Part shown: piece by piece, positions 6,216 to 16,863 of the stretch
Layout: every line of letters begins with the position of its first letter
How positions within the stretch are numbered: position 1 is the first letter of the stretch
DNA from: Clostridiales bacterium
GTDB taxonomy: Bacteria; Bacillota; Clostridia; Lachnospirales; Lachnospiraceae
Direction: 5' to 3'
Assembly (NCBI GenBank): GCA_012839085.1
Contig: DUNZ01000075.1
Location: 1-46,942, forward strand
Length of the DNA: 46,942 nt
Translations under genes and position numbers: made by a program
The notes under the pieces: model-generated
The model's input: the letters and a program-made list of their open reading frames with translations, nothing else
Told to the model about the DNA's origin: nothing
Databases searched by the model: none

Positions 6216-6275
6216 AGCAATGTAATATAAGAATTTTATTTGATACAAACTTTGGGAGTGTTGGGGGAAAACAGA

Positions 6276-7196
6276 ATGAAAAAACATGGATTTTGGTATA
6301 AGGTGAAAAAATATCGGATATTTTTGCTGATGTTACTTCCTGCAGTCATATATACCTTGATATTTAGTTATGGACCTATGGTGGGAATTATATTAGCATT
6401 TAAAAAATATACATACGCTGGTGGAATTTTTAAGAGTCCATGGAATGGGTTTAAGAATTTTGAGTTCTTTTTTAAGTCGGGTCAGGCTTGGACAGTGACT
6501 CGGAATACCGTTTTATATAACTTGTTATTTATCGCGTTCAATACATTTCTCCAGATGACGGTAGCTATCCTTTTAACGGAATTGAAGAATAAGTATTTTC
6601 GAAAGATTTCACAATCTATTATGTTTCTTCCCTATTTCATTTCCTGGGTTATTGTATCCGTAATATCATTTAATTTATTAAGCTATGATTATGGTTTTGT
6701 CAATGGAATTATTTCTAAGCTTGGTGGAACAAAGATTAATTTTTATACCACAGGGGTTTTGTGGCCCTTAATTTTAACACTTTTTAATGCTTGGAAAGGT
6801 GTCGGATATGGATCGGTTATGTACCTTGCAGCCATTATGGGAATTGACACTTCCATTTATGAGGCTGCAGAAATTGATGGGGCGAATGTATTTCAACGTA
6901 TCTTTCGGATTACCATACCCCTCATGGCACCTACCGTAATGATCTTGCTTTTGTTAGCAGTGGGTGGAATTTTCCGCGGTAACTTTGATATGTTTTATAA
7001 TTTGGTTGGTAATAATGGTTTGCTTTATAACTATACAGATGTTATTGATACCCTGACATTCCGAGCATTAATTACCAATAAGGATTTTGGGATGTCTGCA
7101 GCTGTGGGTTTATATCAGTCAGTTCTTTGCTTTATTACTATACTGGCTGCAAATAAATTAGTAAGTGTTTATAGCGAAGATTATACCTTATTCTAG
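6276..7196 (+). CDS. Carbohydrate ABC transporter permease (LplB/CUT1 type)
   Basis: The 306-residue product is an inner-membrane permease of the CUT1 carbohydrate uptake family. It has about six membrane segments beginning at residue 10 (YRIFLLMLLPAVIYTLIF) and a clear EAA loop, YEAAEIDGANVFQRIFRI, the docking site for an ATPase. The ATG at 6276 is chosen because GGGGGA precedes it; the in-frame ATG at 6240 has no ribosome site. It pairs with the permease at 7207 and the binding protein at 8241. No ATPase gene is present, so a shared MsmX/UgpC-type ATPase encoded elsewhere is inferred. The LplB type often carries oligosaccharides. Confidence 0.9.
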   Translation: MKKHGFWYKVKKYRIFLLMLLPAVIYTLIFSYGPMVGIILAFKKYTYAGGIFKSPWNGFKNFEFFFKSGQAWTVTRNTVLYNLLFIAFNTFLQMTVAILLTELKNKYFRKISQSIMFLPYFISWVIVSVISFNLLSYDYGFVNGIISKLGGTKINFYTTGVLWPLILTLFNAWKGVGYGSVMYLAAIMGIDTSIYEAAEIDGANVFQRIFRITIPLMAPTVMILLLLAVGGIFRGNFDMFYNLVGNNGLLYNYTDVIDTLTFRALITNKDFGMSAAVGLYQSVLCFITILAANKLVSVYSEDYTLF

Positions 7197-7206
7197 GGAG
7201 GGCGCC

Positions 7207-8136
7207 ATGAAAAGAAATGTAGGAAAGATATCAAATAAAATCCGTAAAGGTAAGGATGAAAAAATACTTTCCTTCCTAGCCTATACAATCAATGGAATGG
7301 TAGCTTTATTTTGCTTAATTCCTTTTGTTATGGTGGTATCAGCTTCCTTTACATCGGAAGATGCAATCACAAAATACGGTTTTAGCCTTATACCGAAGGA
7401 GTTTAGTTTAAAAGCTTATGAAACAGTTTTTAAGGAACCGATTGTCGTGTTACGAGCCTATGGAGTGACCATAGGGCTAACCATCGTAGGTACTGTCATA
7501 GGATTGTTTATGCAGGTTATGACCGCATATGTTCTATCTAGAAAAGAATTCGAATGGCGAAATAAATTTTCTTTCTTTTTTTACTTTACAACGTTATTTA
7601 ACGGGGGATTGGTTCCATATTTTATACTGATGAATCGAGTATTAGGCTTGAAGGATAACTATTTGGCCATGTTGCTACCCTTATTATTTAGTGTTTTTAA
7701 TTTACTTATTATGAAAAGCTATATTATGGGAATTCCGGACTCTTTAATTGATGCGGCAAAAATCGATGGGTGCGGAGAATTTGGTATCTTGTGCAAAGTG
7801 GTAATTCCCTTAATTAAGCCTGCCATGGCCACAGTTGGACTATTTATAGCCTTGGCATATTGGAATGATTGGTATAGCGCTATGCTTTTTATTAATAAGG
7901 AAAAAATGTATCCATTACAGTACTTTCTATATCAGCAAGTAAATAATATAGAGGCCTATAAACGGATTATTGAATCCGGGCAGGTGAGTGGTTCCGTTAC
8001 ATCAGCGATGTCCTTACCGACTCAGTCCTTAAAGATGGCTTTGACCGTAGTGGTTACCGGTCCGATTATCTTTTTGTATCCCTTTGTGCAAAAATATTTT
8101 GTACAAGGGATTACCATTGGGGCAGTAAAGGGTTAG
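7207..8136 (+). CDS. Carbohydrate ABC transporter permease (LplC/YtcP type)
   Basis: The 309-residue permease is the partner of the gene just upstream, ten bases away. After a basic N-terminus it has six hydrophobic segments, the first being INGMVALFCLIPFVMVVSAS. The EAA-type loop is LIDAAKIDGCGEFGILCKVV. The ATG at 7207 follows GGGAGGG; a longer in-frame version from 7165 would overlap the upstream gene and lacks a ribosome site. Its C-terminus (YFVQGITIGAVKG) is characteristic of this subfamily. It would form the translocation channel as a heterodimer with the 6276 product. Confidence 0.9.
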   Translation: MKRNVGKISNKIRKGKDEKILSFLAYTINGMVALFCLIPFVMVVSASFTSEDAITKYGFSLIPKEFSLKAYETVFKEPIVVLRAYGVTIGLTIVGTVIGLFMQVMTAYVLSRKEFEWRNKFSFFFYFTTLFNGGLVPYFILMNRVLGLKDNYLAMLLPLLFSVFNLLIMKSYIMGIPDSLIDAAKIDGCGEFGILCKVVIPLIKPAMATVGLFIALAYWNDWYSAMLFINKEKMYPLQYFLYQQVNNIEAYKRIIESGQVSGSVTSAMSLPTQSLKMALTVVVTGPIIFLYPFVQKYFVQGITIGAVKG

Positions 8137-8240: not shown

Positions 8241-9857
8241 ATGAAAAGGAGATTGTTATCCATAGTCATGGTAATCGCTTTGCTTGTTGCTATGTTAGCG
8301 GGTTGTAAGTCAAATGACAAGGATAAAGAAACAAATCAACCTGTAACAACGGATGATAACAAGAAAACGGATAACGGTAAAACAAAAGATGATAATGATA
8401 CATCAGGGGGACTTACATATAAGGGCATAGATATTTCAAAAGAAGTAAAATTGAAGATGTATTTGTTGGGAGACAGAACAAAAGATTTTGATTTGGTATA
8501 TTCTGAAATCAATAAAATATTAAAAGAGAAAGTTAATGCAACGGTTGAGGTTGATTTCCTTTCTTGGAGTGATCATGATACAAGATATTCATTGCTATTT
8601 TCAGGTGGCGAGGACTTTGATTTGATTTTTACTGCTTCTAGCTGGGGGCATTATGAAGAAACGGCTTCCATGGGTGGGTTTTATGAACTTACCGAGGATT
8701 TTATTAAAACCTATGCCCCTGATATTTGGGAAGTTGTACCTGAAGCAGGTTGGAGCCAGGCCTTAGTGGATAATAAGGTATATATGGTACCGAATTATCA
8801 GAATGAATTTGCGGTTCATGTGCTGGCAGTTCGGGGCGATTTAATGGAGAAGTATGGATTTAGTGACATTACCAGTTGGAATCAATTAATTGATTTCTAT
8901 GAGAAAGTTGCGGAAAATGAAACAGGTATTACCCCCTTGGGCACCCAGGGAAGTGGCCTTCTCTATCCATTTTATTTACATAAAGGTGTAGATACTGTAG
9001 GTGGTACACCTGCTGAGTTATTTGTGTTTAATACAATCGATCCAGATGATTTATCTATTAGCTTTGCCCTAGATTGGGATGGTTTTATAGAATATGCAAA
9101 TGCGGTTCATGATATGTACAATAAAGGGTTCTGGTCTGCAGACTCCATGGCTACAACAGAAGAACGTCAGGACAGTTTCTTAAAGGGAACAGCAGCTTCC
9201 ATGGTATGGAACCTTGGTACTTGCCAGATGTATGCAAACCAGGCAAATCAGGAACATCCCGAATGGAAATGTACTGTTGTTGATATTGCCTCCCATATAC
9301 CGAAAGGAGTAAATCCTTATATTAATAATGGTATAGCAATTAATGCAACCAGTAAAAACAAAGAACGTGCCATGATGGTATTAAATGAGTTCTATACGAA
9401 TCCTGAAGTCTTTGACCTTGCCATGTTAGGTGTGGAAGGAGTTCATTGGGAAGCAGTTGGTGATGATCAGTTTATAGAATTAGAGAAATCCTCTGACTAT
9501 GGTGTAGACAGTAACTGTAACTGGGGTTGGACCAATATGGAGATCAAACGTACCAAATATAATGAAAACCCTACGATTCCAGATCTTAAAGCGATTGCTT
9601 TGACTGATTTATGGAACGAAAATGTTAAGCCAGACCATATCTATGATGGATTTACCTTTGATAGTTCAAAGGTAAGTTCTGAAATTGCTGCAGTGGACAC
9701 CGTATTAGCGCAATATTATAATCCAATTATTTATGGAATGGCAGGAGATGTTGATAAGGCCATTAGCGAGTTGAGAAAACAATTGGAGAATGCAGGAATC
9801 AATACAATTTATGAGGAAATAAAAGCTCAAGCTGCAGCCTTCGTTGATAATAATTAA
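8241..9857 (+). CDS. Extracellular solute-binding lipoprotein (LplA/YtcQ type)
   Basis: The 538-residue protein starts with a lipoprotein signal, LLVAMLAGC, with the acylated cysteine at residue 22, followed by a hydrophilic Asp/Lys/Thr-rich tether to about residue 50. The rest is a two-lobed family 1 solute-binding fold, longer than a maltose-binding protein, as usual for LplA/YtcQ. It would be anchored to the outer face of the membrane and deliver oligosaccharides to the two permeases upstream. The ATG follows AAAGGAGGG. Acidic surface residues and many Trp (for example NWGWTNMEI) fit sugar binding. The ligand, probably a galactan or arabinogalactan fragment, is inferred from the GH53 gene. 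Confidence 0.88.
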   Translation: MKRRLLSIVMVIALLVAMLAGCKSNDKDKETNQPVTTDDNKKTDNGKTKDDNDTSGGLTYKGIDISKEVKLKMYLLGDRTKDFDLVYSEINKILKEKVNATVEVDFLSWSDHDTRYSLLFSGGEDFDLIFTASSWGHYEETASMGGFYELTEDFIKTYAPDIWEVVPEAGWSQALVDNKVYMVPNYQNEFAVHVLAVRGDLMEKYGFSDITSWNQLIDFYEKVAENETGITPLGTQGSGLLYPFYLHKGVDTVGGTPAELFVFNTIDPDDLSISFALDWDGFIEYANAVHDMYNKGFWSADSMATTEERQDSFLKGTAASMVWNLGTCQMYANQANQEHPEWKCTVVDIASHIPKGVNPYINNGIAINATSKNKERAMMVLNEFYTNPEVFDLAMLGVEGVHWEAVGDDQFIELEKSSDYGVDSNCNWGWTNMEIKRTKYNENPTIPDLKAIALTDLWNENVKPDHIYDGFTFDSSKVSSEIAAVDTVLAQYYNPIIYGMAGDVDKAISELRKQLENAGINTIYEEIKAQAAAFVDNN

Positions 9858-9906
9858 GCTTAAATTCTGTCTGGTGTATAAACTTGCCAAGTTTTAAAAA
9901 AGTGGG

Positions 9907-9934
9907 ATATGGTCACTGCTTATGGTGACCATAT
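9907..9934 (+). other. Intercistronic hairpin after the solute-binding gene
   Basis: ATATGGTCAC (9907-9916) pairs perfectly with 9925-9934 across an eight-base loop. There is no T-run. Hairpins of this kind after binding-protein genes often stabilise the upstream message or partly attenuate downstream transcription, giving more binding protein than the rest of the operon. Confidence 0.5.
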
Positions 9935-10058
9935 ACTGCTTATACAGCTGCAAAGTAGACAATAAAATAAGAAACATATAACAAGAAAGTTCAGAACCAT
10001 GGGTTATTAAAGTTATTAAACCAGAAGGTTACAAAAATGAAAACGGAGAGAAGTTAAA

Positions 10059-11891
10059 ATGGATAAATTTGTTTTGAATATTATACATAGGCCTGAGATG
10101 GTTCCAGAATATGCTGAAAAGGTTACAGGTCATGGAAAACAGGAGGATATAACAAGAAAAGATTTACTAAAGGAATCTTTAGATATCTTTCGATTTCAGC
10201 AAGATACTGCACACAAATATGGTTTAAAAACAACGATTCAGATGACCTATGCCAGTTTGTTTAATGATGAAGCGGTTACAATAGCCAAAGAGCACCATGA
10301 AGTGTATGGTGACGAAATTGCCTTATCCTTGCTTGGTTTACCATGCAAAGAATTTAGGGATAAGTATAAAACGAAAGAATTTTGTATTTGGTTGTTTTCT
10401 CTGGAAGATAAAAAATCCATAGTAAATGATGTATTCGAAAAGTTTTATCAAAGATTTGGTTTCTATCCTCAATCCACGGGATCCTACTATATGGATGCAG
10501 ACCTGATTAATTATATCAAAGAAAAGTATCCTTCGGTAAAATGTGCTGTTGCATCCTGCTGGGAGGAGGGTCCTAAGGCTTATCATACATGCAATAATTC
10601 ATGGTATACTTTTTTGGACGGAGGTCCTTGGAACCCTTGGATACCGTCAAAACAAAATACTCATGCTCCAGCGGCGAATGAATTAGAGGATAGTGGAATT
10701 GTTGCAATTCCCCACTTGTCCCGTGATTTAATCGCTTGCTATGATGGGAATGGATCCAACTTTGGAACTCATCCACAAAATGTGCTTCGGGGGATGATTT
10801 ATAAGGATGGACAGTATCCTTATCTATATAATATTATTGATCAATACCGGCATCTGGCAAAGTTCAATAATGGTTTTGCTTATAATATGATGTTTGTAGG
10901 GCCGGGTTGGTTAAACAAGATGGGGAGATGGGAAGCACCCTATGAACTTTTAGCAAAGAGTTATGATGATGGTATGGCATACTATGGTCAGTTAAAAAAA
11001 GAAGGAAAACTCACGGATATGACCATGTCGGAATTTGCAGATTATTATCGACAAAAAAAGACCTATACAGAACCAGAATGTGCACTATGGAAGGATATTC
11101 TGTATGGTTCTGATAAGCAATTGTTCTGGTACTGTGATCCCTTTTTCCGAGCATGCGTGAATATGGATCAGGGGGGAGCGATTGTTGATCTTCGCCCCTA
11201 TGTAGCAAAACTAGTAAGACCAGTTGGGATTGGTACAAAGCATATCGCAGATGCATCATATCCGTTCTTAATACAAGAAAAATATCGGGCAGGATATTTT
11301 ACTCATTATGCCGGTGAAGGCACCATACGTAGTGCAAGGTTAACATACCAAGGTGAAGAGGTTGATCTTTGCTTATGTAGAACCAAGGCTACTTTTTCAC
11401 AGGAAGGTTCCGTGCGTATTCTAACACTAAAACCGGTAGAGATAGAGTTTTGTGATTTAACAATTAAGCTACAGACAAAGATTTATTTTGAAGAAGGAAG
11501 CTCTAGCATAAAAATTGAAAGAACCATCCTAGAGATGTCAGATTCCAAGGCTGAAGTACAATTAGATGAATATATGGTAGCCTGTTATGGTACAACAGAA
11601 TATCCAGAGGATATGACCGGAATACGTTTAGAGTGTAAAAATAATGAAGAAAGTAAGTTTATAGATTATCAGTATCGATGTCGTGAACATTTTCTAGAAG
11701 GGGCTACAATTACACAGGCAATTGTGCCACAGATTGAAACGAAAGTTTCCATGACTAGTAGTAAGGCCGAGGTTGTTGGATACATTAAGGAAGGTTATGC
11801 TTTTTCTCCGATGTTTACTTTGGGATATACTACGACATTGAAAGATAAGGAGGTATTTGCAACATGGCTCAATCTGGAAAAGGCAGATTAA
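10059..11891 (+). CDS. Uncharacterised 610-residue protein, predicted cytoplasmic carbohydrate-active enzyme
   Basis: I do not recognise the family with certainty. The protein has no signal peptide. The N-terminal half (about 1-370) looks like an alpha/beta barrel, with NodB/GH38/GH57-like features: LKTTIQMTYASLF, EHHEVYGDEIALSLLG, FGFYPQSTGSYYMDADLINY, and a Trp-rich loop (WYTFLDGGPWNPWIPS). The C-terminal part (about 380-610) alternates short beta strands, as in the beta-sandwich domains of such glycosidases. Conserved-looking His, Asp and Trp positions (IPHLSRDLIACYDGNG, FGTHPQN) could form an active site. It sits between a sugar-binding protein and an endo-galactanase, and its end overlaps the next gene by 28 bases. 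A relation to DUF3863/DUF3864-type proteins is possible but untested. Confidence 0.6.
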   Translation: MDKFVLNIIHRPEMVPEYAEKVTGHGKQEDITRKDLLKESLDIFRFQQDTAHKYGLKTTIQMTYASLFNDEAVTIAKEHHEVYGDEIALSLLGLPCKEFRDKYKTKEFCIWLFSLEDKKSIVNDVFEKFYQRFGFYPQSTGSYYMDADLINYIKEKYPSVKCAVASCWEEGPKAYHTCNNSWYTFLDGGPWNPWIPSKQNTHAPAANELEDSGIVAIPHLSRDLIACYDGNGSNFGTHPQNVLRGMIYKDGQYPYLYNIIDQYRHLAKFNNGFAYNMMFVGPGWLNKMGRWEAPYELLAKSYDDGMAYYGQLKKEGKLTDMTMSEFADYYRQKKTYTEPECALWKDILYGSDKQLFWYCDPFFRACVNMDQGGAIVDLRPYVAKLVRPVGIGTKHIADASYPFLIQEKYRAGYFTHYAGEGTIRSARLTYQGEEVDLCLCRTKATFSQEGSVRILTLKPVEIEFCDLTIKLQTKIYFEEGSSSIKIERTILEMSDSKAEVQLDEYMVACYGTTEYPEDMTGIRLECKNNEESKFIDYQYRCREHFLEGATITQAIVPQIETKVSMTSSKAEVVGYIKEGYAFSPMFTLGYTTTLKDKEVFATWLNLEKAD

Positions 11892-12076
11892 ATTACAGAT
11901 GTCCTTCATGTTTCATGAGAGACATCGATATCGATATGTTTTATGATAAGGAGAAGGACGAATACTATTGCTTGCGTTGTCAATATATTGGAGATGAAAA
12001 GGATGTCTTAGAGAAAAATGAAATGGTGCGATTTCGATATCGCAGAATGCTGGATCGAATTACGGAATTTGATTAA
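11864..12076 (+). CDS. Small zinc-ribbon protein coupled to the 610-residue protein
   Basis: The 70-residue product has two CxxC knuckles, CPSC at about 14-17 and CLRC at about 37-40, separated by 19 residues: a minimal zinc ribbon. The C-terminal 25 residues are a charged helix (EKNEMVRFRYRRMLDRITEF). A strong AAGGAGG site lies ten bases before the ATG, inside the end of the upstream gene, and the two reading frames overlap by 28 bases, which suggests translational coupling. It could bind nucleic acid or another protein, or stabilise its partner. No named family is recognised. Confidence 0.75.
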   Translation: MAQSGKGRLNYRCPSCFMRDIDIDMFYDKEKDEYYCLRCQYIGDEKDVLEKNEMVRFRYRRMLDRITEFD

Positions 12077-12166
12077 ATGCAGGATGATTAAAATAATTAA
12101 TATATGGAATCAATAAAATCGGATTATATGATCGTATATAATTATTAATATTAAAGGAGGATTAAC

Positions 12167-13207
12167 ATGAGTAACCCAAACAAAACAGGTAGTAATTTTG
12201 CATACGGTGCCGATGTGGGTTGGTTAAGCCAACTGGAAGATCAGGGAGTAATCTGGTTGGATCATGAGGGTGAGCCGAAAGATGCATTACAGATACTAAG
12301 GGATTTTGGGATCGATTCCATTCGGCTACGGGTCTTTGTCAATCCTCCTTCTAGTTTTCAGTGGAAGAAGAATAATGGGGTAACCTGTTATTTGGGATAT
12401 ACAGACACACATTCCTTATTAAAGATGGCTCAAAGAGCCAATGGAATGGGCTTTCGGATTATGGTGGATATTCACTACAGCGATCATTTTGCTGATCCAG
12501 AGTATCAAGACATTCCCGAGGCTTGGTTGACCCATTCATTTTCTGAGTTAGTGCAGGATGTCTACAATCACACCCATGATGTAATGTCAAAGTTGGTTGA
12601 TTTGGGAATCTATCCTGAGTGGGTTCAGGTAGGCAATGAGATTAATAGTGGAATACTTTTGCCCCATGGGGCGAGCAATGATAATAATTTTTCTCATTTG
12701 ACTGAGTTGCTAAACAGCGGCTATGATGCTGTTAAAAGTGTCAATGAAGCATCAAAAGTGGTGACTCATTTGGCAGATGGACATAATAATGCTACCTTTC
12801 GTTGGTTTTTTGATAATTTCCTTAAGCACCATGGCGGTAAAACAGATGTGATTGGTTTCTCATATTATCCATATTGGATTGGAACGGATTACAAGGAGAA
12901 TATGGATGCCTTAAAAAACAACTTGAACGATGTAGCTTCAAGTTATCATAAAGAAGTTATGGTTTGTGAAGTGGGTGGTTATGATTCCGATGAAACAAAT
13001 ACATATCATCTCCTTCGTGCAACCATTAATGCGGTCAAGTGTGTTCCTGGGGGTAGAGGATCTGGAGTGTTCTATTGGGAGCCGGAAGCAAATGCATCGG
13101 TGCTACCCGATGGTTATCCCTTGGGAGCATCAAGGGAGATTTCACCCAAGGTATTAAAGATTTCCAAGGCAATGAAAGCCTTTCGTGATAGCCAATTGGA
13201 TGATTAA
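12167..13207 (+). CDS. GH53 endo-beta-1,4-galactanase, no signal peptide
   Basis: The 346-residue protein is a glycoside hydrolase family 53 (arabinogalactan endo-beta-1,4-galactanase) barrel. It starts directly with the family opening (FAYGADVGWLSQLED) and continues with DSIRLRVFVNPP and MVDIHYSDHFADP. The catalytic acid/base is Glu158 in VQVGNEINSG and the nucleophile Glu268 in VMVCEVGGYDS. The length is that of the catalytic domain alone. There is no signal peptide, so it should work in the cytoplasm on imported beta-1,4-galacto-oligosaccharides. This is unusual for the family, whose members are mostly secreted. The ATG follows AAAGGAGG. Confidence 0.93.
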   Translation: MSNPNKTGSNFAYGADVGWLSQLEDQGVIWLDHEGEPKDALQILRDFGIDSIRLRVFVNPPSSFQWKKNNGVTCYLGYTDTHSLLKMAQRANGMGFRIMVDIHYSDHFADPEYQDIPEAWLTHSFSELVQDVYNHTHDVMSKLVDLGIYPEWVQVGNEINSGILLPHGASNDNNFSHLTELLNSGYDAVKSVNEASKVVTHLADGHNNATFRWFFDNFLKHHGGKTDVIGFSYYPYWIGTDYKENMDALKNNLNDVASSYHKEVMVCEVGGYDSDETNTYHLLRATINAVKCVPGGRGSGVFYWEPEANASVLPDGYPLGASREISPKVLKISKAMKAFRDSQLDD

Positions 13208-13308: not shown

Positions 13309-14331
13309 ATGGATCAAAATAATAAAAAAGTGGATAATCAAAAACGATTAACCATAAGTGATGTTGCAAATGCTCTGGGTGTTTCAAAGTCAACCGTGTC
13401 CAGAACCCTATCGGGAAATGGTAGAATTAGTGAAGCGACTAGAAAAAGAATATTGCAATATATCAAGGAGCATAACTATACCCCAAACTTTATTGCTAAG
13501 AGTCTGGCAGAATCAAAAACCTTCAATATTGCAGCAGTCATTCCGAGAGATTATAATCTAGTAGATTTACCGTTTTTCCAGGAATGTATGATTGGAATTA
13601 GTGAATATGCATCATCACAAAATTATGATGTATTTATGTGTATCTGTTATGAAGATGATATGTCTCAACTGGAACGTATTGTTGAAAACCATAAGGTGGA
13701 TGGAGTAATTTTAACCAGAACCCTTTTTGACGATAAAAAAGAACAGTACTTATTAGAAAAGAAAGTTCCCTTTGCTACCATCGGAACATCGATTAATAAA
13801 GAGGTTATTCAAGTTGACAATGACCATAGAGAGGCTTGCAAGGAAATGACCTCATATTTAATAATGAAGGGATTTCGCCGCATTGGCTTAATTGGTGGTA
13901 GTGAAACCCATATTGTTACCTTAAACCGATATAGGGGTTATGAAGATGCTCATAAGGAACATGGTTTATCAGTGGATAAGCAAATTGTTTATATGAATGC
14001 ACAAAACAGTATTACCATAGAAAAATATGCTATGGAGTTAGTGAAACAAGATGTGGATGTAATTGTGTGTATGGATGATTCAATATGCACAAATGTACTT
14101 AAGGTTTTCAAAAAAGAAGGTATTAAAGTACCCCAAGATATAAAATTAGCATCATATTTTAATAGTACAATGCTTGAAAATCGGACACCATCGATTACCA
14201 CCTTACAATTTAACATCAAAGAGTTAGGTATTGAAGCCTGTCGGGCCTTGTTTAGTCGAATTAATGGAGATATGAATTGTAGCAAAATTATTAAGAAATA
14301 TGAAGTAATATTAAAGGAATCCACAAAATAG
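13309..14331 (+). CDS. LacI-family transcriptional regulator of the galactan operon
   Basis: The 340-residue protein has the LacI DNA-binding head at about 14-60 (LTISDVANALGVSKSTVSRT, then hinge NYTPNFIAKSLAES) followed by a periplasmic-binding-protein-like effector domain. It is the last gene of the operon, 101 bases after the galactanase, and probably binds a galactose-containing sugar and represses or activates the operon through the palindrome at 6206-6215. The ATG is preceded by GAGGAA. The terminator at 14348 follows. Confidence 0.9.
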   Translation: MDQNNKKVDNQKRLTISDVANALGVSKSTVSRTLSGNGRISEATRKRILQYIKEHNYTPNFIAKSLAESKTFNIAAVIPRDYNLVDLPFFQECMIGISEYASSQNYDVFMCICYEDDMSQLERIVENHKVDGVILTRTLFDDKKEQYLLEKKVPFATIGTSINKEVIQVDNDHREACKEMTSYLIMKGFRRIGLIGGSETHIVTLNRYRGYEDAHKEHGLSVDKQIVYMNAQNSITIEKYAMELVKQDVDVIVCMDDSICTNVLKVFKKEGIKVPQDIKLASYFNSTMLENRTPSITTLQFNIKELGIEACRALFSRINGDMNCSKIIKKYEVILKESTK

Positions 14332-15258: not shown

Positions 15259-16863
15259 ATGGGATTCGTAGCATCTGATATTAAAAATTCCATCATCAAT
15301 GGAAAGACAGCCCTTGGTATTGAGTTTGGTTCTACCCGAATAAAAGCAGTACTAATTGGTGAGGATAATTCACCCATTGCTTCCGGTAGCCATGAATGGG
15401 AAAACAGCTATATTAACAACATCTGGACTTATAGTTTAGAAGACATCTGGACAGGTTTGCAAGATAGTTATCAAAAGATGAAAGAAGATGCAAAAGAAAA
15501 GTATGGTGTAACCATTGAAACCGTTGGTGCCATTGGTTTTAGTGCTATGATGCATGGCTATATGGCCTTTAACAAAGATGGCGAGCTTTTAGTGCCATTC
15601 CGTACTTGGAGAAATAATATTACAGAGGCCTCATCAAAGGCGTTAACAGAGCTATTTCAGTTTCATATTCCTCAAAGATGGAGTATTGCCCATTTATACC
15701 AGGCAATTTTAAATGAGGAAGAACATATTTCCGATATCGATTACTTGACTACTTTAGCAGGATATATTCATTGGAAATTAACTGGTCAAAAAGTTTTGGG
15801 CGTTGGTGAAGCATCGGGAGTATTCCCCATTGATTTAGCAACCAAAGATTATAATGCTCGTATGATTCAACAATTCGATGATTTAGTTGCTCCTAAAAAC
15901 CTTCCATGGAACTTAGGGGATATTCTACCTAAGGTATTATTAGCAGGTGAAAAAGCAGGTGAACTTACAGAAGAAGGAGCAAAGTTACTGGATCCTTCAG
16001 GAGATTTAAAAGCAGGAATTTTACTTTGTCCTCCAGAAGGAGATGCAGGTACTGGTATGGTAGCAACCAACAGTATTGCACAGCGTACAGGTAATGTGTC
16101 TGCAGGTACATCCGTATTTGCTATGATTGTACTGGAGAAGGAATTGTCCAAAGTACATCCTGAAATTGACCTAGTTACAACACCAACTGGTAACTTGGTA
16201 GCTATGGCTCATTCCAATAACTGCTCATCCGATATCAATGCATGGGTAGGACTGTTCAACGAATTTGCAAAAGCTATGGGTCTTGAGTGTGACGCAAATC
16301 AATTATTTGGCACCTTATTTAACAAGGCATTAGAGGGAGATAAAGATTGTGGTGGTTTATTGTCTTATGGTTATCTTTCCGGTGAGCATATCACAGGCTT
16401 TGAAGAAGGTCGTCCACTCTTTGTTCGTTCCTCTGATAGCAAGTTTAACTTAGCGAATTTCATGAGAGTTAATCTATATACCGCATTAGGAGCCCTGAAA
16501 ATTGGCTTAGATATTCTACTAAAAGAAGAAGGGGTTAAACTAGACAAAATCCTTGGCCATGGTGGATTATTCAAGACCAAAGGAGTTGGCCAAAGCATTA
16601 TGGCAGCAGCAATTAATGCTCCTGTTACGGTAATGGAAACTGCTGGTGAAGGTGGAGCATGGGGTATTGCTTTACTTGCTTCCTTTATGATTAACAAGGG
16701 AGAGAACGAAAGCTTAGAAGATTATTTGAACAATAAGATTTTTGCTGGTAAAATGGGAGAAACCATGAATCCAGATCCCGAGGATGTGGAAGGCTTTAAT
16801 GAGTTTATGAAGCGTTACATCAAGGGACTTGCTATTGAAAGAGCAGCAGTTGAAAATCTATAA
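15259..16863 (+). CDS. FGGY-family carbohydrate kinase, L-ribulokinase-like
   Basis: The 534-residue protein shows the FGGY kinase nucleotide fold: the phosphate-binding loop [16 protein letters not shown] (18-33), [14 protein letters not shown], and the second half with [29 protein letters not shown] and [10 protein letters not shown]. It closely resembles, from memory, the 530-residue kinases of Bacteroides arabinose clusters, which phosphorylate L-ribulose; it is not the classical AraB type. It has its own promoter and a GGAGG site. Near a galactanase it fits use of the arabinose side chains of arabinogalactan. No isomerase or epimerase gene is in the window, so the substrate is inferred. 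Confidence 0.82.

Follow-up and report, generated by a model that had tools for sequence, protein, structure and literature searches.

The stretch analysed here (the window) is the 46,942-nucleotide contig DUNZ01000075.1 of a Clostridiales bacterium of the family Lachnospiraceae (assembly GCA_012839085.1). It encodes a protein of 610 residues, here called P610, followed by a 70-residue zinc ribbon, ZnR, and then by an endo-beta-1,4-galactanase of glycoside hydrolase (GH) family 53, behind the genes of a sugar importer of the ATP-binding cassette (ABC) type (Table 1). The open reading frames (ORFs) of P610 and ZnR overlap by 28 bases in the window, and the Shine–Dalgarno sequence of ZnR, AAGGAGG, lies within the P610 gene, where it spans the codons of K597 and E598 and the start of that of V599, 10 bases before the ZnR ATG. 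These ORFs, together with those of the permeases and the binding protein, are as an earlier description of the window made from the sequence alone (the original prediction) had given them. We consider it most likely that P610 acts in the cytoplasm as a glycosidase, that its family is undescribed and that ZnR is its obligate small subunit, where the activity, the substrate and the contact between the two proteins are what we infer from the evidence weighed below.

Table 1. Features of the P610–ZnR locus, with positions in the window
Feature	Position	Strand	Description	Basis
P610	10059..11891	+	610 aa; predicted cytoplasmic carbohydrate-active enzyme; no Pfam family	ORF; Pfam, NCBIfam and PDB searches; structure model
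P610 domains			Residues ~1-335, NodB/GH57-type barrel; residues ~336-610, mutarotase-like beta super-sandwich	Predicted structure
ZnR	11864..12076	+	70-residue zinc ribbon, CX2C-X19-CX2C, charged C-terminal tail; start codon within P610	
Shine–Dalgarno sequence of ZnR (AAGGAGG, 11847-11853) with 10-base spacer	11847..11863	+	Inside P610 codons from K597	
GH53 endo-beta-1,4-galactanase, without signal peptide	12167..13207	+	346 aa	PF07745, E=6.9e-93
ABC sugar permease 1 (BPD_transp_1)	6240..7196	+	Listed TTG start maybe too far upstream	Pfam
ABC sugar permease 2 (BPD_transp_1)	7165..8136	+	Listed GTG start maybe too far upstream	Pfam
Solute-binding lipoprotein (SBP_bac_8 and DUF3502)	8241..9857	+		Pfam
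LacI-family regulator	13309..14331	+	Probable cluster regulator	Pfam
17-base inverted repeat	9900..9941	+	82% complementary, 8-base loop; between the binding-protein gene and P610	

The association of the two genes was followed through 106 loci with a P610 match of more than 300 residues, of which 104 are nearly full length; some were fetched twice, and 98 are non-redundant with a full ZnR. The distant relatives L028/L052, L053 and L058, which have no P610 match over 300 residues, are left out of these counts. ZnR follows P610 in 105 of the 106 loci, the exception being a contig that ends 7 bases past the match, and the offset between the two genes is identical in 103; it is off by 6 bases in L131, and in L051 the BLAST match begins late and the ORFs overlap by 31 bases. 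When 200 genomes of the window's family were sampled, 27 had a ZnR-type P610 and exactly these 27 had ZnR; P610 or a relative is present in 29, G003 and G051 having distant relatives only. A single-sequence search of 398 sampled genomes of the phylum gave one match, the window's own genome, and in the class, of which 391 genomes were sampled, 28 were matched by a profile built from near and far relatives. The neighbourhood of the deep relatives was checked in 26 loci, 25 from the class search plus L177, leaving out G000 and G060 (already included), the weak match G984 (76 profile positions) and G876 and G1195, which are fragments interrupted by internal stops. ZnR overlaps the end of P610 in all 18 relatives scoring above 440 bits with the family profile, and it was found within 4 kb downstream in none of the eight scoring below 370 bits. 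The overlap persists at 33–39% identity to P610, and a 34-row tree has one branch (support 100/100) that separates all 26 ZnR-bearing rows from the rest. A scan of 84,980 species genomes with two neighbouring patterns, by which one gene may count twice, yielded at least 548 matching stretches encoding P610 relatives; 80 loci kept from it, all distinct, are referred to below as the named loci, and their titles are mostly of Lachnospiraceae (e.g. Roseburia hominis An869, Lachnoclostridium phytofermentans, which carries the pair in L060, Anaeromicropila populeti and Mediterraneibacter species), although a few are labelled otherwise. No P610 relative was found by a pattern-based scan of viral contigs, and no ZnR by tblastn of phage records.

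ZnR is classed as a zinc-ribbon protein by its two CX2C knuckles, and zinc binding is predicted. Of 104 loci, 102 have the CX2C-X19-CX2C motif and two are truncated, and the spacing between the knuckles is X17 to X20 in deep relatives. Codons 11–64 are constrained as protein, with a median proportion of nonsynonymous differences (pN) of 0.12 vs 0.89 for synonymous ones (pS) over 800 random pairs from 92 sequences. The strong ribosome site claimed for ZnR in the original prediction is borne out by AAGGAGG at 10-base spacing in 98 of 104 loci, which is more than chance. Gene overlaps within operons are common, and one could suppose that nothing more than this joins the two neighbours, ZnR having some small unrelated function and being retained solely through co-transcription. 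We consider this very unlikely, as the two genes occupy identical sets of genomes (27 of 200), ZnR is confined to one side of one tree branch and is itself constrained, and the overlap is maintained at 33–39% P610 identity. Another possibility is that ZnR regulates the operon or its mRNA by binding nucleic acid and, instead of being a subunit of P610, is coupled to it in translation. ZnR matches no curated zinc-ribbon family over the cut-off (best DUF5092, E=0.0054, and Zn_ribbon_DnaG, E=0.025), and its best match in the PDB, the TFIIB zinc ribbon, would fit such a role but is not significant (E=0.055). A regulator seems unlikely, however, as ZnR stays with P610 when the remaining cluster changes and is absent beside the eight sister-group relatives, and as 53 of the 80 named loci already have a LacI-type gene.

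P610 alone had no match in Pfam or NCBIfam (E≤1) or among PDB sequences (E≤10), and a 15-row P610 profile had none among PDB sequences either. A first AlphaFold run, with 15 mostly close homologues, gave a predicted local distance difference test score (pLDDT) of 64.6 and was repeated with 34 more diverse rows; the resulting AlphaFold2 model has a pLDDT of 84.7 and a predicted template modelling score (pTM) of 0.87. Its best Foldseek match is 3LM3 (E=3.3e-16), annotated as a ‘putative glycoside hydrolase/deacetylase’, and the second is the GH57 enzyme 1K1X (E=1.2e-14), a glucanotransferase, with further matches to galactose mutarotases, YidC domains, a NodB-type deacetylase and the GH38 enzymes Bl_Man38B (E=4.8e-8) and Bl_Man38C (E=1.7e-6). 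The P610 family profile retrieves 3LM3 by sequence as well (E=1.6e-7), as its sole significant PDB sequence match, and a fold search of BFVD with the model gave four matches at E≤0.001, none of them informative. The architecture guessed originally, a barrel followed by a beta-rich half as in GH38 or GH57 enzymes, agrees with the model and with the matches to 3LM3, 1K1X and Bl_Man38B, and the sequence and profile searches matched P610 to no characterised family with an unrelated role.

In the model, segments 18–26, 176–184, 224–245 and 411–418 have a pLDDT below 50, and their mean conservation is 94.3, 99.8, 96.2 and 99.4%, respectively, vs 89% across P610; this would fit loops that become ordered with a partner, metal or substrate/ligand that the model lacks. 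Residues invariant in the 26 rows of the ZnR clade, and not in ZnR-less relatives, include H10, H52, E170, H219, R222 and H238, among which the four histidines could be part of an active site or a metal site; E169 and D223 are common to the ZnR clade and the ZnR-less relatives. It could also be that P610 uses this fold for something other than hydrolysis, as a phosphorylase, transglycosidase, deacetylase or lyase: the second-best fold match is a glucanotransferase, deacetylases share the barrel, and 3LM3 itself carries the double label of glycoside hydrolase and deacetylase. On the other hand, the Asp-His-His metal triad known from NodB is not seen by eye in alignment A3 of P610 (which does not include L225, L213, L228 and L229), and there is no marker of phosphorolysis among the identified cluster genes, none having been specifically searched for. 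We regard a non-hydrolytic P610 as rather improbable.

The closest described protein is 3LM3 (BDI_3119 of Parabacteroides distasonis), which is a DUF3863 and DUF3864 protein, a Parabacteroides protein with both Pfam domains matching it over 448 residues. It is shorter than P610, and no ZnR is known for it, its own genome not having been searched. P610 has no score against PF12979 (DUF3863) or PF12980, and the relative L053 reaches 13.2 bits (E=0.039) against PF12979, vs a cut-off of 27. A 24.6% relative of the P610 barrel (‘hypothetical protein’, no Pfam match) lies on the P. distasonis plasmid NZ_OY725801.1 (L176, 5587–8710), in tandem with a DUF3863 protein and behind SusC/SusD-type genes. 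Judged by this neighbourhood, the superfamily also serves polysaccharide loci of Bacteroidota. The Thermococcus litoralis 4-alpha-glucanotransferase 1K1X has the same order of barrel and super-sandwich as P610; however, the GH57 model PF03065 does not match P610 and matches a single one of the 34 family members, and that weakly (E=0.084), the GH57 signature motifs are not recognised in P610, and of the two strands that bear the catalytic residues of GH57 (Glu on strand 4, Asp on strand 7), strand 7 shows no invariant acid in the ZnR clade in alignment A3. The GH38 alpha-mannosidases Bl_Man38B and Bl_Man38C are similar in fold by Foldseek, but no GH38 Pfam model was matched at E≤1 by P610 or by any of the 34 members, and the HxD zinc motif familiar from GH38 is not seen by eye at strand 1.

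As for gene content, the gan operon of Bacillus subtilis serves galactan use and encodes an importer, GH42 and GH53. P610 loci resemble it in combining an importer, GH53 and in part GH42 near a LacI gene, but differ in that their GH53 is mostly without a signal peptide, and to our knowledge the gan operon has neither P610 nor ZnR. A comparable case, in which a metabolic enzyme has a small zinc-ribbon protein as its partner, is that of the DUF35 proteins co-encoded with thiolases, although that enzyme is unrelated to P610 and DUF35 proteins have an additional OB fold. We know of no precedent for a zinc-ribbon partner of a glycosidase-like enzyme, and P610 would thus be a glycosidase-like enzyme on a known fold, with its partner as the novelty. 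The original prediction knew of no characterised system combining a zinc ribbon, such an enzyme and a cytoplasmic GH53; consistent with this, the accessible literature searched, with few subscription journals covered, held no description of the P610–ZnR pair and no paper on DUF3863/DUF3864 or BDI_3119, and the two papers there in which 3LM3 appears deal, by title, with the genomics of Staphylococcus aureus and with a method for protein surfaces. An arabinogalactan Gram-positive polysaccharide utilization locus (gpPUL) with three GH53 genes has been described in R. hominis A2-183 and R. faecis M72/1 (PMC5320581), and the accessible part of that paper names no zinc ribbon for it.

The GH53 enzyme of the window scores 311.8 bits against PF07745 (curated cut-off 24) and matches solved arabinogalactan endo-galactanases (best E=1.6e-57). 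Its open frame has 350 codons for 346 residues and therefore no room for a signal peptide, which agrees with the cytoplasmic location assigned to it at the outset. In 81 of the 106 loci GH53 is the gene directly downstream of the pair, and in 97 it occurs at some point of the stretch that was fetched. Of the directly downstream copies, some are 68–69% identical to that of the window (L031, L057, L060, L063) and the others 29–35%, implying that two lineages fill the same place. A crude hydropathy test, for which start codons were chosen heuristically, showed no signal-like N-terminus for the directly downstream GH53 in 61 of the 63 named loci that have one. At the genome level, a GH53 match over the Pfam cut-off is present in 23 of the 27 genomes with the pair vs 22 of the 173 without it (Fisher p=5e-14). 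A second GH53, in an open frame of 1492 codons, is encoded elsewhere in the window's genome.

The recurrence of the trio, as originally proposed, is thus real in many of the inspected loci, so that absence of a conserved neighbourhood cannot be held against it, but GH53 is not an obligate member: four of the 27 pair-bearing genomes lack a GH53 match, and diverged pairs stand beside other carbohydrate-active enzymes. The latter include GH29 (L051), GH2 with an MGH1-like enzyme and an epimerase (L177), GH31 with GH78 and GH42 (L224), a raffinose-synthase-like enzyme (L226) and polysaccharide lyase family 8, PL8 (L220). The two scanned neighbours of the pair in L219 have no Pfam match, and in L221 (11139–14991) the scanned downstream neighbour is a LeuA/HMGL-type protein, the clearest case without an adjacent sugar enzyme. 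Because diverged pairs sit beside other sugar enzymes, the conserved unit is P610 with ZnR, which GH53 accompanies in one large subfamily. In L048 (genome G148) and L049 (G015), the P610–ZnR pair is found at 73–74% identity in a genome without a GH53 match.

From these neighbours, P610 and ZnR would serve mostly in sugar breakdown, with a specialisation in galactan oligosaccharides in the large GH53-linked subfamily; activity on galacto-oligosaccharides stays at the strength that the original prediction had itself given it, that of an argument from gene neighbours. We propose that an extracellular galactanase would cut the galactan polymer into oligosaccharides, which the ABC importer would take up and the cytoplasmic GH53 would shorten, and that P610–ZnR would then remove terminal or side-chain sugars from the shortened oligosaccharides. 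The active site of P610 would lie in the NodB/GH57-like barrel, which the mutarotase-type beta super-sandwich follows. ZnR, translated from its own conserved Shine–Dalgarno sequence at the 3′ end of the P610 gene, might bind P610 during its synthesis, its production at the gene end favouring assembly of the complex, and would be needed for the fold, the loops or the activity of P610. That the pair is a two-component cytoplasmic glycosidase, engaged in beta-1,4-galactan use in the window's subfamily, has in our estimate an even chance of being correct. The stronger proposal that P610 founds an undescribed glycoside hydrolase family of Lachnospiraceae and other Clostridia, whose members are active only with a dedicated ZnR that completes or gates the active site, is tentative, and we give it somewhat less than even credence.

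Several observations weigh against a two-component galactan glycosidase. The whole-length template modelling scores (TM-scores, normalised to the query) are modest, 0.43 for 3LM3 and 0.28–0.30 for 1K1X, and because of this the match to 3LM3 and GH57 denotes a fold class and no family assignment. No confident catalytic pair could be named in P610, the signature motifs of GH57 and GH38 being unrecognised, and D146, which is at the expected strand, is lost in L226. In favour of the pairing, the distances of P610 and ZnR are correlated (r=0.95 over 17 deep pairs, a value reached in 0 of 2000 permutations; r=0.88 over 98 shallow loci), but much of this is shared history and not contact, because the GH53 control is nearly as high: over the 73 shallow loci with GH53 the values are 0.79 for P610–ZnR, 0.74 for P610–GH53 and 0.59 for ZnR–GH53. 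As to GH53 itself, that of the window is short, the named loci with the GH53 nearest to it (L060 and L063, 68–69%) have signal-like N-termini, and the pair-bearing genomes without a GH53 match are G015, G030, G057 and G148. Finally, a beta-galactosidase gene of GH2 or GH42 type is nearby in 41 of the 80 named loci, so that another galactosidase is not obviously needed, and the window's genome (89.9% complete) has five GH2 matches elsewhere and no GH42 match. The idea of P610 as the only beta-galactosidase is weakened by these GH2/GH42-type genes and by the five GH2 matches.

P610 could instead be a carbohydrate enzyme other than a galactosidase, which removes side chains, e.g. L-arabinose, from type I arabinogalactan oligosaccharides and leaves the backbone to GH53, GH2 and GH42. 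The nearby beta-galactosidase genes would agree with this, as would L215, where genes for L-arabinose isomerase, L-ribulose-5-phosphate 4-epimerase and an FGGY kinase extend the cluster beside P610; this kinase is 66% identical to an FGGY sugar kinase of the window (15259–16863; best NCBIfam models xylulokinase/ribulokinase, below cut-off). By its sequence, the window's kinase may link the locus to arabinose. However, araA/araD-like genes were found in none of the 80 named loci (up to ~8 kb on each side; 51 of the 80 at full length) and elsewhere in L215 alone among the other loci scanned, and the diverged pairs with GH29, GH31, GH78 or PL8 tie no single sugar to the family. We consider a side-chain enzyme of this kind rather improbable. 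A general arabinose link of P610 was rejected, no araA/araD-like gene having been found in the stretches scanned of the 80 named loci.

If the preferred reading of a glycosidase with an obligate zinc-ribbon partner is true, this would be a new way of building a glycosidase, and P610 expressed without ZnR should then be inactive or unstable. Lachnospiraceae dominate among gut fermenters, and pectic galactan belongs to the common dietary fibres. P610 has no Pfam or NCBIfam name, in spite of the many stretches that encode its relatives.

In a cluster analysis of the 80 named loci, GH53 was found in 71 and LacI-type genes in 53, two clusters of permeases and one of binding proteins in 40–42 loci each, two GH42 clusters in 20 and 10, and GH2 LacZ in 15. 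The inverted repeat between the binding-protein gene and P610 could possibly form an mRNA hairpin, perhaps with a stabilising or attenuating effect. By eye, two gene pairs resembling glycyl radical enzymes and their activases are located near P610–ZnR in L226 (10062–17798), and in L190 (60–1217) the pair is followed by a 385-residue protein that resembles, again by eye, a relative of uroporphyrinogen decarboxylases and corrinoid methyltransferases.

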